64,000 bases of DNA, taken from positions 248,001 to 312,000 of the forward strand of contig WGNL01000018.1 in NCBI GenBank assembly GCA_016124585.1, written 5' to 3'. The position numbers and the translations under genes were made by a program. Shown piece by piece: positions 31,041 through 35,285 of this stretch (positions within the stretch are counted from its first letter, which is position 1; every line of letters starts with the position of its first letter). The stretch is from Bacteroidota bacterium (lineage in GTDB: Bacteria > Bacteroidota > Bacteroidia > Chitinophagales > Saprospiraceae). Below the pieces are notes generated by a model. The model searched no databases and was not told where the DNA came from. It saw nothing but the letters and a program-made list of their open reading frames with translations.

Positions 31041-31139
31041 GTTAAAAAAATGTTGAAATACGGCAGGATAGCCTGTCTTTTGGGCATCTCAGTTGTTAAA
31101 CCTGTTAATTTGCACTTCCAAAATCAAATCCATTTTCAT

Positions 31140-32312
31140 ATGAAATCTGTACTTTCATTGTTTATAGCCATTACTGTGTCGCTACAATTAAGTGCGCAGG
31201 GTATTGAGTTCTTCCACGGCAGTTTCAAGGAAGCACTGGAGGAATCCCACAAATTGGGCAAGCCTATTTTCATGGATGCCTATGCAAAATGGTGTGGCCC
31301 ATGTAAGCATATGGCTGCCACCACCTTTAAGGATCAGTCTGTGGGAGAATATTTCAACCAAAATTTTATCAACCTTAAGGTTGATTGGGAGGAAAGCGAG
31401 GGTATTTCGCTGCGGAGCAAATATGCCGTTAGTGCCTTTCCAACCTTGTTTTTTATTGGAAGCGATGGGGAAGTTATTCAGAAAGTAGTAGGCGGACAAG
31501 ACGTGAAAGGCCTGCTCCGGCAAGGAGAAATGGCGCTTGGCAAGGTGGACTACAGCCGTGAATACGCCGCATTGTATGAAAAAGGCGACCGCAGTCCTGA
31601 ATTGATTTACAACTACGTAAAAGCGCTAAATAAATCCAACAAGTCTAGTCTAGGTATCTCCAATGAGTACCTACGCTCACAGGAGGACCTTTCCACAGAA
31701 TTCAACAAGAAATTCATTCTAGAGGCTGCCGTGGAGGCCGATTCCCGCATTTTCGATTTGTTGGTGAAAAATCAAAAAGAAATCGGCATGCAGGAAGGGT
31801 TGCAACCACTTCGTGACCGGATTGAATTGGCGTGTACGAACACCTTGAAAAAGGCCATTGAGTTCCAATCGCCAGAACTATTGGAAGAAGCAAAGGCCAA
31901 GATGAAGGCCAATTATGCCGAGAAATCGGACGAGTTTTCTGCCATGGCTGACTACGATTACCATAAAGCAGCGAAAGACCCAAAAAAATTTGGTAAGTCT
32001 TGCGCTGCATATGCCAAGAACGTGGCCAAAGATCCAAAAGGACTTGCCAAGCTAGCTACTGACATTGCCAACAGTTTCAATTCGGACAAAGATTGCATGA
32101 AGCTCGCCGAAAAATACGCCAAGGAAGCTGCTGAAAAAGGAAACGATTTCCATTTTTATACTTCTTACGCCGAGATTCTGCATGCCAACGGTAAGAAAAA
32201 GCAAGCCCTCGAAGCAGCTAACAAAGCCTTGGAAATGGTCAAAAAAGGAGAGACCATTGACAGCGGTGATGTACGCTCGGTGGAAGGCTTGATTAAAATA
32301 ATCGAAAGCTGA
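31140..32312 (+). CDS. Secreted thioredoxin-like protein, paralog 1
   Basis: This is an exported protein of 390 residues. After the signal peptide (MKSVLSLFIAITVSLQLSAQ) comes a thioredoxin-fold domain (residues about 21-140) starting GIEFFHGSFKEALEESHKLGKPIFMDAYAKWCGPCKHMA, with the redox motif WCGPCK and the cis-Pro region AFPTLFFI. The C-terminal 250 residues are helical with TPR-like character (KYAKEAAEKGNDFHFYTSYAEILHANGKKKQALEAANKAL). It is probably a periplasmic thiol oxidoreductase with a helical partner-binding domain. ATG 31140 is chosen over the track start 31050. The next gene is a clear paralog of the same layout, so a tandem duplication has occurred. Confidence 0.9.
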   Translation: MKSVLSLFIAITVSLQLSAQGIEFFHGSFKEALEESHKLGKPIFMDAYAKWCGPCKHMAATTFKDQSVGEYFNQNFINLKVDWEESEGISLRSKYAVSAFPTLFFIGSDGEVIQKVVGGQDVKGLLRQGEMALGKVDYSREYAALYEKGDRSPELIYNYVKALNKSNKSSLGISNEYLRSQEDLSTEFNKKFILEAAVEADSRIFDLLVKNQKEIGMQEGLQPLRDRIELACTNTLKKAIEFQSPELLEEAKAKMKANYAEKSDEFSAMADYDYHKAAKDPKKFGKSCAAYAKNVAKDPKGLAKLATDIANSFNSDKDCMKLAEKYAKEAAEKGNDFHFYTSYAEILHANGKKKQALEAANKALEMVKKGETIDSGDVRSVEGLIKIIES

Positions 32313-32387
32313 ACTGATGTTTGAATGCTGGTACGATATTTTAACAACCTAGTAATTCAACAATCTAGCAATCACAGTCATTTTACC

Positions 32388-33545
32388 ATGAAAAAATACC
32401 TGATTTTGCTCGCATTTGCGCTGTTTATTGGAAGCAACAGTTACGCACAGGGCATTGAGTTTACGCACGGTACTTGGAAAGAAATCAAGGCAAAAGCTGC
32501 CAAGGAAGATAAGCTTATTTTTATGGATGCCTACGCTGAATGGTGCGGGCCTTGCAAGAAAATGGCCCGTGACGTTTTTTCCCAAAAAGAAGTTGGGGAT
32601 TATTTCAACGCCCATTTTGTCAATGTGAAAATGGACATGGAAAAAGGTGAAGGCATTGGTCTTTCCAGTGATTTTGGCATCCAAGCTTACCCAACCTTGC
32701 TGTTCATCAATTCAGACGGTAAAGTGGTTCACCGAGCGGTTGGCTACCACACAACCGATCTGCTTATTGATCTGGCAGGTGCTGCTAAAGATCCCAACAG
32801 AAACGAAGGCTCTATCACGGCTCGTTATGACGCTGGTGACCGCTCGCCAGAGTTGCTTCGCAATCTTGCAACTGCCCGTTATGATGCAATGGACGGCACT
32901 TATGTGAGGGTTGCCGATGAATATTTGGCTACACAGGCGGATTGGAGTACGCCGGACAACCTTTCTTTCATAATGAAGATGACGGATGACCTCAATTCTA
33001 AAATGGCCGATTACTTACTGAACAATCGTCAATTGTTTGAGGATAAATTTGGCAAAGAAACCGTGATTGGCAAGGTGGACGAGCTGGTGCAAAATACCAT
33101 CTCACATGCCGAATCGGAGGCTGATTTGACAAAAGTAGAGGCACTTTATGCTAAAACTTATCCAGAGCGGGCTGAAGAAATGTCTGGCCAATTGAAGATG
33201 GGCTTTTATGCTCAACGGGAAGATTGGAAGAATTTTGCAAAAGTTGCTGACAAGCATTTCAAGAAATTCCCACCCGAAGATTGGACGGTGCTGAACGATA
33301 TAGCTTGGTTATACTATGATGCCGTAGATAGCAAAAAGGAACTGAAATGTGCGCTTGGGTGGGCCAAGCAGTCCGTTAAATTGGATAAGAACTACGCCAA
33401 TACTGATACGGTGGCATCACTGTATTACAAACTTGGGAAAAAAGGCAAGGCACTTAAATCTGCCAATGAAGCAATTGCTTTGGCTAAAGCCAGTGAAGAG
33501 GATTATTCTGAAACTGAGCTGCTCATCCAGAAGATAAAAGGCTAG
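32388..33545 (+). CDS. Secreted thioredoxin-like protein, paralog 2
   Basis: The 385-residue product has the same plan as its neighbour: signal peptide (MKKYLILLAFALFIGSNSYAQ), GIEFTHGTWKEIKAKAAKEDKLIFMDAYAEWCGPCKKMA with the WCGPCK active site, AYPTLLFINSDGKVVHRAVGYHTT, then a helical TPR-like C-terminal half ending KKGKALKSANEAIALAK. The thioredoxin domains are much more alike than the C-terminal halves, which suggests different partners. It sits 75 nt after paralog 1; that spacer includes ATTCAACAATC-type repeats. ATG 32388 begins the signal peptide. A strong terminator follows. Confidence 0.9.
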   Translation: MKKYLILLAFALFIGSNSYAQGIEFTHGTWKEIKAKAAKEDKLIFMDAYAEWCGPCKKMARDVFSQKEVGDYFNAHFVNVKMDMEKGEGIGLSSDFGIQAYPTLLFINSDGKVVHRAVGYHTTDLLIDLAGAAKDPNRNEGSITARYDAGDRSPELLRNLATARYDAMDGTYVRVADEYLATQADWSTPDNLSFIMKMTDDLNSKMADYLLNNRQLFEDKFGKETVIGKVDELVQNTISHAESEADLTKVEALYAKTYPERAEEMSGQLKMGFYAQREDWKNFAKVADKHFKKFPPEDWTVLNDIAWLYYDAVDSKKELKCALGWAKQSVKLDKNYANTDTVASLYYKLGKKGKALKSANEAIALAKASEEDYSETELLIQKIKG

Positions 33546-33658: not shown

Positions 33659-34180
33659 TTATTCAACACTCCCTTTCTGCTTTTCGTAGCGCTTGATGTA
33701 TTCTTCTACAATATCGCCTAAAATATCCTTCAGGTAAGCCTTCTCCATCCGGGCTATGACCTTTAGCTTGTTCAATTTAGCTTTGTCAAAGCTTACAGTT
33801 AGGCGGCGTGTGCCGGTCACTTGGTCTTCCTCCACATCACCCCGCTCTACAGTACGGCGGATGAGCATGTCGAGACCGCTGAGTGGTTTGCGGCGATGTG
33901 TTTGTTGGTGAAAAGGCTGTGCCTTGCTTCCAGCTGCGTTTGCCTCTTTTTCTTGAATTTGTTCTTCAAAGGACTCCTGCATGGCTTCTTGCAGCAAAGA
34001 ATCGAGATCGGTAGTGAAATTTTTGCGGGAAGGACTTTTGTTCACAGCGGGTTTGCCAACACCGGGCTTCATCTCGTCGGGGTTGGATCCCTCCAGGAAG
34101 GTAGTTCCCTGACCGCTCTCCTTGTTGTGGTCAATGGAAAAGAGGCTTTCAAGTCCGTCTGTGAATTTCTTTTTGCTCAA
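33659..34180 (-). CDS. Ribbon-helix-helix protein with three ParB-N-terminus-like motifs, ParA partner candidate
   Basis: The 173 residues have no signal peptide. Residues 125-167 (RRLTVSF strand, then KAKLNKLKVIARMEKAYLKDILGDIVEEYIKRY) fit a ribbon-helix-helix DNA-binding fold. The remainder is low in predicted structure but repeats one motif three times: KFTDGLESLF (5-14), KNFTTDLDSLL (53-63) and KPLSGLDMLI (98-107). This resembles the short N-terminal motif (LGRGLxALL type) with which ParB contacts ParA. It is encoded directly after parA in the same direction, 75 nt apart. I infer a ParA adaptor or centromere-binding protein of the type Ib style. No ParB nuclease-like domain is present. 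Confidence 0.75.
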   Translation of the reverse strand: MSKKKFTDGLESLFSIDHNKESGQGTTFLEGSNPDEMKPGVGKPAVNKSPSRKNFTTDLDSLLQEAMQESFEEQIQEKEANAAGSKAQPFHQQTHRRKPLSGLDMLIRRTVERGDVEEDQVTGTRRLTVSFDKAKLNKLKVIARMEKAYLKDILGDIVEEYIKRYEKQKGSVE

Positions 34181-34255: not shown

Positions 34256-35017
34256 TTATTTTTCGTCTGCGTCTATCCTTGCCAAAATCTCAGTGCATAG
34301 GCTCATATAATCCTGTGCGCCAATACTGTTCCGGTTGTAGTTGAAAATATCAGTGCGCTGTGAAGGTGCCTCGGCCAGCGAAACGTTATCGCGGATGAGG
34401 GTTTCAAAGACTTTTTCACCAAAATATTTCTTGATGGTTTCCACCACATCCCGGTTCAAAATCTTACGGGAGTCATACATAGTGGCAATGACCCCGCCAA
34501 TTTCGAGGTTTTTGTTCAATCGAAACTTCACCTTGTCAATTACCTGCTTGATTTTCGCTAATCCCTGCAAGGCCAAAAACTGTGTTTGCAATGGAATATA
34601 CACATAGTCGCTTGCTCCAAGTGCGTTCAAGGTGAGCAGCCCAAGTGAGGGCGGGCAGTCAATGATGATGAAATCGTATTCATCCTTGATAGGCTCAAAA
34701 AGTTCCTTCAGAATGTATTCCCTGCCAGCTTCGTTGATGAGTTCCATCTCCGCACCGGAGAGGTCAAGGGTGGACATTACCACGTCAAAATTTTCCCGAA
34801 CTGAATATGGTTCCAACTCTGACTCACCACGGAGGGCCTCATAAATAGTGTTGGGTTGCCGGGGTATGCCTAAGGATAGGGATAGGTTAGCTTGAGGGTC
34901 AAGGTCAATAAGCAACACCTTTTTGCCCAATTCGACCAACCCAGCGCCAATATTAATGGTACTTGTAGTCTTTCCAACGCCACCTTTATGGTTTAATAGC
35001 GAGATGATTTTTCCCAT
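34256..35017 (-). CDS. parA: ParA/Soj-type chromosome partitioning ATPase
   Basis: This is a 253-residue deviant Walker ATPase. The deviant Walker A is NHKGGVGKTT (residues about 9-18), followed by LLIDLDPQANLSLSLG (Walker A' region) and FIIIDCPPSLGLLTLNAL (Walker B, near 117). Length and motifs fit short chromosomal ParA/Soj proteins rather than the longer plasmid ParA with an HTH domain. It would form dynamic DNA-bound dimers that move ParB- or adaptor-bound cargo. The downstream gene is a ribbon-helix-helix protein instead of ParB. Two parS-like palindromes are 16 kb away at 51.1-51.5 kb. Confidence 0.95.
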   Translation of the reverse strand: MGKIISLLNHKGGVGKTTSTINIGAGLVELGKKVLLIDLDPQANLSLSLGIPRQPNTIYEALRGESELEPYSVRENFDVVMSTLDLSGAEMELINEAGREYILKELFEPIKDEYDFIIIDCPPSLGLLTLNALGASDYVYIPLQTQFLALQGLAKIKQVIDKVKFRLNKNLEIGGVIATMYDSRKILNRDVVETIKKYFGEKVFETLIRDNVSLAEAPSQRTDIFNYNRNSIGAQDYMSLCTEILARIDADEK

Positions 35018-35285
35018 ATTGCTCGTTTACCAGTTAGCTCCTCCTTTTTTGTTTTGTGAGTGGAGGTCGGGCAAAAATAGACAAATAATCCTAGCGGAGA
35101 ACCTGATTTTTCAACACTTGTTCTGCTCGACAAATATTTTTAGGCCAAAAACCGGACAAATCATTTTCGAAAGATTGTATTTCCGATTTTTACAAACCAA
35201 ACCCGAATTACATCGTTTTACTTTGTTCTGGTTCTGAGTTTTGATATTCGAACAAAGCGATTTTACCATAAAAATTAATTGCAAC

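Follow-up and report, generated by a model that had tools for sequence, protein, structure and literature searches.

In M. xanthus, four hydrophobic residues of ParB (L11, L15, L18 and I19) dock in a pocket at the edge of the ParA dimer (V116, L150, L152, L155, L187 and L192), and ParB R13 touches a ParA patch formed by Y81, E82, D110 and E117, by which hydrolysis is triggered (PMC12462528). In ParF/ParG of TP228 and ParA/ParB of pSM19035 (delta/omega), the centromere is bound by a ribbon-helix-helix (RHH) dimer, the flexible N-terminal tails of which act on ParA. ParG does so via an arginine-finger-like residue, and both systems combine centromere repeat arrays with one contact region per chain; the ATPase of pSM19035 is fully activated only with four or more contiguous parS repeats (PMC9499535). 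ParA+RHH pairs are also encoded by Bacteroidota plasmids, such as WP_181716112/WP_181716110 of Flavobacterium pA5BP1 and pairs from Tenacibaculum, Adhaeribacter and Bacteroides/Phocaeicola, in which the partner (~85–109 aa, annotated as 'hypothetical protein' and once as 'plasmid partition protein ParG') is encoded directly downstream of parA. A further described pair is PrgP/PrgO of enterococcal plasmids.

Judged from its sequence, the gene pair analysed here, found in a genome of the Saprospiraceae, represents the plasmid ParA–RHH partition design in a chromosomal form with three motifs. Like the Bacteroidota plasmid pairs, with which its ParA shares 57–65% identity and the HKGGVGKT signature, it has a partner gene directly downstream of parA, the product of which contains an N-terminal Phi-x3-L-x2-L-Phi pattern and a C-terminal RHH. 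However, the plasmid partners have one motif, and comparison with the pA5BP1-type pairs revealed a shared ParA clade but a partner (hereafter the adaptor) of 173 aa with three motifs, encoded on a long chromosomal contig. The pair resembles canonical ParABS in its Soj-type ParA, the hydrophobic spacing of the docking peptide and the pocket residues, but the adaptor has neither a ParB/Srx (ParB_N) CTPase domain nor an HTH domain and carries no R/K at the activating position. Although ParG is the best PDB profile match of the adaptor, the structures nearest to the window ParA are of the Soj type (8ray, 1wcv) and not of the small ParF type, ParF being a smaller and distant ParA (E 3.9e-12 vs 4.4e-63 for M. 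xanthus ParA). The tail of pSM19035 omega (MIVGNLGAQKAKRND) does not contain the motif. PrgP is the top NCBIfam match of the window ParA (2.6e-28), at 99 bits against a cut-off of 400, and PrgO matches the plasmid partners weakly (15 bits against a cut-off of 100 for a plasmid relative); the N-terminus of the E. faecalis partner that we examined is unlike that of the adaptor.

The gene pair and its RHH domain

In the window, i.e. the whole 64,000-nucleotide stretch of DNA analysed, the pair is located on a contig of at least 312 kb of a 6.6-Mb genome. Its surroundings, as read from the ORFs, are chromosomal and include genes for ferritin, a prolipoprotein diacylglyceryl transferase-like protein, thioredoxin-fold proteins and others, and no replication gene was found near the pair among the ORFs of the window. 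The features of the locus are as follows.

35099..35115, minus strand: GTTGAAAAATCAGGTTC, a candidate operator only; stretch conserved in the closest relatives, without enrichment in the genome
35072..35079, minus strand: TATTTTTG, candidate Bacteroidota -7 promoter element upstream of parA; conserved in close relatives (alignment)
34256..35017, minus strand: parA; product a Walker-type ATPase of 253 aa (HKGGVGKTTS, R53, K162, R166, R209) that belongs to the RHH-partnered clade and is distinct from the canonical ParA of the genome
33659..34180, minus strand: adaptor gene; 173-aa ORF, RHH at the C-terminus preceded by three ParA-contact-like motifs; TTG start at 34180; 88 orthologs
34136..34174, minus strand: motif 1, residues 3–15 (KKKFTDGLESLFS); consensus K-K-x-F-[TS]-x-G-L-[ED]-S-L-F
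33959..34024, minus strand: motif 2, residues 53–74 (KNFTTDLDSLLQEAMQESFEEQ); K-x-F-[TSA]-x-D-L-[DEQ]-[SA]-[LF]-[LF]
33845..33892, minus strand: motif 3, residues 97–112 (RKPLSGLDMLIRRTVE); G-[LI]-D-x-L-I-R-x-T
33680..33808, minus strand: RHH domain, residues 125–167; PDB profile match and AF2/Foldseek

Both genes are on the minus strand, with the adaptor gene 75 nt downstream of parA in the ORF map. The assignment of TATTTTTG as a putative promoter element is based on its resemblance to known Bacteroidota promoters.

The initial annotation, which gave no strand for the adaptor ORF, stated that the gene after parA is not parB and that its product has an RHH fold at residues 125–167, and both statements were confirmed. 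Among PDB entries, the ortholog profile matched ParG (E 9.7e-5), CopG and ORF56, a protein of an archaeal plasmid, and 29 of 74 adaptor members weakly matched Pfam ParG. In the AF2 model, residues 133–146 and 150–169 form helices (pLDDT 96–98), and Foldseek aligned the model with the RHH domain of CopASO (TM 0.91 by target length) and also with ParG. This single-chain model lacks the ribbon strand, which is to be expected because the RHH fold is completed by dimerization. Two ribbon residues are conserved (R126 in 85 and T128 in 75 of 88 orthologs), and we take these, judging from CopG, to be positions of the kind that touch DNA. No ParB domain was detected in the adaptor or in 74 orthologs. 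An overlooked canonical parB is ruled out, as the only PF02195 match in the genome is the canonical ParB, encoded with its ParA on contig C11. No Pfam or NCBIfam family covers the adaptor; a Pfam Pro_dh match (E 0.06) was rejected as below the cut-off and unrelated.

Conservation of the motifs and of the ParA pocket

The initial annotation had named three peptides (residues 5–14, 53–63 and 98–107) as copies of a ParB-like ParA-contact motif. The alignment of 88 distinct orthologs, which in the non-redundant set share ~23–51% identity with the window protein, contains four islands of conserved columns (residues 1–15, 53–74, 97–112 and 125–166) that coincide with the three motifs and the RHH, whereas the linkers differ in both length and sequence. 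All three motifs are conserved beyond chance in these orthologs. The most conserved columns are K4 (88 of 88), F6 (81), G9 (70), L10 (69), L13 (70) and F14 (78) in motif 1; K53 (84), F55 (83) and L59 (85) in motif 2; G102 (85), D104 (84), L106 (86), I107 (79), R108 (80) and T110 (88) in motif 3; and A143 (87), together with R126, in the RHH region. Motif 2 was the best match of the motif 1 profile in the linker in 78 of the 88 proteins, with a median shuffle p of 0.002, which is the floor of the 500 shuffles used. The strict hydrophobic pattern is in place in 86/88 (motif 1) and 84/88 (motif 2), while only 8% of shuffled linkers contain one anywhere. The motif 1 core profile also found motif 3 in register in 85/88 (median p 0.01), but this is a weaker copy: its first hydrophobic position is mostly Pro, so that three of the four hydrophobics are kept, the first anchor is missing and the strict pattern is present in 1/88. 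In statistical terms, motif 2 is a copy of motif 1, and motif 3 is a divergent version. The motif 3 form also occurs at the N-terminus of Bacteroidales plasmid partners. The N-terminal region had been described as otherwise disordered; this does not apply to residues 55–84, a confidently predicted helix in the AF2 model that begins in motif 2. In motif 1, the AF2 model has a low confidence of about 66.

Motif 1 (F6, L10, L13 and F14) and motif 2 (F55, L59, L62 and L63) have exactly the i, i+4, i+7, i+8 spacing of M. xanthus ParB. In contrast, the activating Arg/Lys at i+2 (R13 of M. xanthus ParB) is missing from all three motifs, the equivalent columns in the 88 orthologs being D/E/S (position 8), S/D/T (position 57) and S/G (position 101). 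Two residues ahead of the first anchor, a Lys is retained in all (K4) or nearly all (K53) orthologs. On the ParA side, the equivalents of L150, L152, L155, Y81 and E117 are invariant in 86 orthologous ParAs; L192, E82 and D110 are kept in 85, 84 and 84 of them, respectively, and V116 is replaced by M in 81. At the L187 position, all 86 ParAs have Lys (K162), and Ala/Ser stands in place of the M. xanthus DNA-binding R238; therefore, docking and DNA binding differ in detail from those of M. xanthus ParA. Other basic residues (R184, K185, R189 and R209) are conserved. A salt bridge between K162 and the acidic residue of the motifs is conceivable; of seven plasmid ParAs, five keep the Lys, whereas the corresponding position of the type 1 plasmid motifs is occupied by N, G or A.

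These findings suggest that the motifs likely dock on ParA by homology, and the designation as a ParB-like contact motif is well supported at the sequence level by the spacing of motifs 1 and 2, the mostly retained pocket and the motif-bearing plasmid partners, even though motif 3 does not share the first anchor. Because pocket and spacing are kept while R13 is lost, the activation step must differ from that of ParB or use another residue, e.g. K4/K53. The lack of a ParB-type activating residue could also mean that the motifs self-associate or bind another partner, such as a membrane or an FtsZ-like or SMC-like protein, with one or none of them touching ParA. Such a role would fit the extra invariant R-x-T of motif 3 and the continuation of motif 2 into a long helix. 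However, the spacing equals that of the experimentally mapped ParB motif, and exactly this motif is retained by the single-motif plasmid partners of related ParAs, in which it is the only conserved N-terminal element. We therefore consider binding to another partner unlikely.

Distribution and relationship to plasmid partition pairs

A profile search (E<=0.01) detected the adaptor in 116 of 199 family genomes and 70 of 112 genera, although a few of the weakest matches are spurious or of another type. In a phylum-wide sample searched with a seven-sequence profile, solid matches were confined to the Saprospiraceae; no match was found in phages, and among plasmids the window adaptor had a single, weak match. 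A same-strand parA is located directly upstream of the adaptor gene in 86 of 88 loci. In the remaining two, from one genus (G447 and G540), both genes are present but unlinked, with the ParA (74% identity) encoded elsewhere; this unlinked pair provides a useful natural test of trans function. Conversely, of 25 family genomes in which the adaptor had no solid match, 24 also lack this ParA type and have canonical-like ParAs at 40–48% identity, or none. The exception (G496) carries a plasmid-type pair, the partner of which has one motif (MAKKNFTGGFNKLLGE). The adaptor genomes listed tend to be larger (often 5–11 Mb) than the listed genomes without an adaptor (about 3–5 Mb), a tendency uncorrected for phylogeny.

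In a maximum likelihood tree (midpoint root, bootstrap not fully settled), the orphan ParAs of the Saprospiraceae, i.e. those of the present type, form a group with 99/97 support and join the plasmid ParAs of Flavobacterium, Tenacibaculum, Adhaeribacter and Lawsonia with 99/94 support, whereas the canonical Saprospiraceae ParAs lie across a 100/99 branch. The plasmid ParAs that are 57–65% identical are those of Flavobacterium, Tenacibaculum, Lawsonia, Adhaeribacter and Bacteroides. In all cases examined but one, the next gene encodes a small, one-motif protein of RHH-like type (KKNFTGGLNSLLG or GLTGGLDSLIQST), the exception being Flavobacterium CBA20B-1, in which the gene after parA does not encode such a protein. 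The N-terminal motif of these 85–109-aa partners is of type 1 (MSKKNFTGGLNSLLG) or, in Bacteroidales, of type 3 (SAGLTGGLDSLIQST, MKSGLDGLLSST). Based on the tree position and the fitting partners, the three-motif protein appears to be a chromosomal elaboration of the plasmid-type ParA–RHH design. The initial annotation had proposed a design distinct from both ParB and ParG-type proteins. The first part holds, since there is no ParB domain, but an RHH with an N-terminal ParA-contact tail is the design of ParG and pSM19035 ParB, here tripled; the novelty therefore resides in the number of motifs and in the family-wide chromosomal conservation, and not in the adaptor principle.

Several related pairs were also observed. 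Plasmids of Bacteroides, Parabacteroides and Phocaeicola encode RHH-like partners with a GLDSLIQST-type N-terminal motif, mostly annotated as 'hypothetical protein' and once as ParG; these are likely the partition proteins of those gut plasmids. The presence of a Bacteroidota-type ParA with a one-motif RHH-like partner on plasmid pl03 of Lawsonia intracellularis (Desulfovibrionales) suggests transfer between phyla. The next grouping in the tree consists of the ParAs of family f24 (another class), which are the closest chromosomal ones outside the Saprospiraceae (54–60% identity). Downstream of each lies a gene for an RHH-like protein of 83–130 aa, the N-terminal motif of which is a different one (SLGHNPLAYS...FDFI), and the pair, often located just before a recC-like gene, may represent a second chromosomal ParA–RHH lineage with a different contact motif.

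Possible functions of the pair

We propose, with a probability of roughly 0.7, that the two genes form a chromosomal ParA-type DNA partition or positioning module, in which the adaptor would bind ParA, stimulate its ATPase and attach it to a DNA cargo. The RHH domain would dimerize and should bind a specific DNA site, and by analogy with ParFG and pSM19035 (PMC7308502, PMC9499535), the contact partner of the adaptor tails would be ParA-ATP on the nucleoid. The DNA site would in this way become linked to ParA until ParA is released upon ATP hydrolysis, as in the ratchet or relay of ParABS and ParFG. Several motifs per chain could plausibly provide the valency that plasmids obtain from one-motif RHH dimers lined up on a repeat-array centromere, and a dimer with six motifs might reach such a valency on fewer sites. 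A more specific version, which we put forward only tentatively, is that the pair is a second dedicated chromosome-positioning system beside ParABS, with the valency borne by the adaptor (three motifs per chain, six per dimer), motifs devoid of the activating arginine of ParB, and one or few RHH sites in place of repeat arrays or spreading ParB clamps.

The pair might alternatively be vestigial or autoregulatory, i.e. the parA–RHH operon of an integrated plasmid with the RHH protein acting mainly as a repressor of its own operon, as ParG is known to repress its operon (PMC7308502) and the nearest relatives outside the Saprospiraceae are plasmid partition pairs. The source genome, in which we surveyed ParA-type loci on contigs C11, C7, C35, C1 and C15, contains, in addition to the canonical ParAB, three further small ParA+RHH pairs (C7, C1 and C15). 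Two of these (C7 and C15) adjoin replication-initiator-like ORFs, and the small pairs are probably integrated or binned plasmids. The window pair has no such neighbour, however, and the three-motif pair is kept in over half of the 199 family genomes in differing gene neighbourhoods, and its motifs are strongly constrained whereas the linkers are free to change, all of which renders a vestigial or autoregulatory role improbable.

It is equally improbable that ParA moves a protein complex via the adaptor, with the RHH serving for dimerization only, although ParA/MinD ATPases move other cargos elsewhere, e.g. in McdAB and PomXYZ (PMC12204374, PMC7993993). Consistent with a non-DNA cargo, the search for an operator or centromere repeat was negative, both in the sequences preceding parA at 78 non-redundant loci, where k-mer enrichment yielded only promoter and translation-start words and no repeated site, and in a genome-wide count of a candidate: TGTGGAAAA is present upstream in nine loci, four of which are close relatives of the window, and GTKGAAAAATCRGGTTC (<=2 mismatches) occurs 17 times in the genome compared with 15 times for the reversed control and is thus not enriched. 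On the other hand, the conserved ribbon residues are of the DNA-contacting kind, and plasmid relatives within this ParA clade carry the same RHH, their cargo presumably being the plasmid. Moreover, neighbouring genes provide no conserved cargo candidate, parA being common to 59 of 62 loci and the next family to 15.

A DNA partition or positioning module of this kind would mean that the plasmid-type ParA–RHH design is a standing chromosomal system in at least half of the family, beside canonical ParABS, and would assign a function to a widespread 'hypothetical protein' outside Pfam and NCBIfam. With a natural protein that is itself multivalent, the contribution of valency can be tested directly, motif by motif, and hydrophobic anchors that occur without the ParB arginine would make binding and activation separable.

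Two minor features of the locus were also noted. The adaptor start codon is TTG or GTG in 55 of 88 orthologs, and that of parA is ATG in 84 of 86; the weak start codon may keep the adaptor level low relative to ParA. In addition, two adjoining thioredoxin-fold genes at 31050–33545 of the window have similar N-terminal halves (TWKEIKAKAAKEDKLIFMDAYAEWCGPCKKMA...) and have apparently arisen by tandem duplication.
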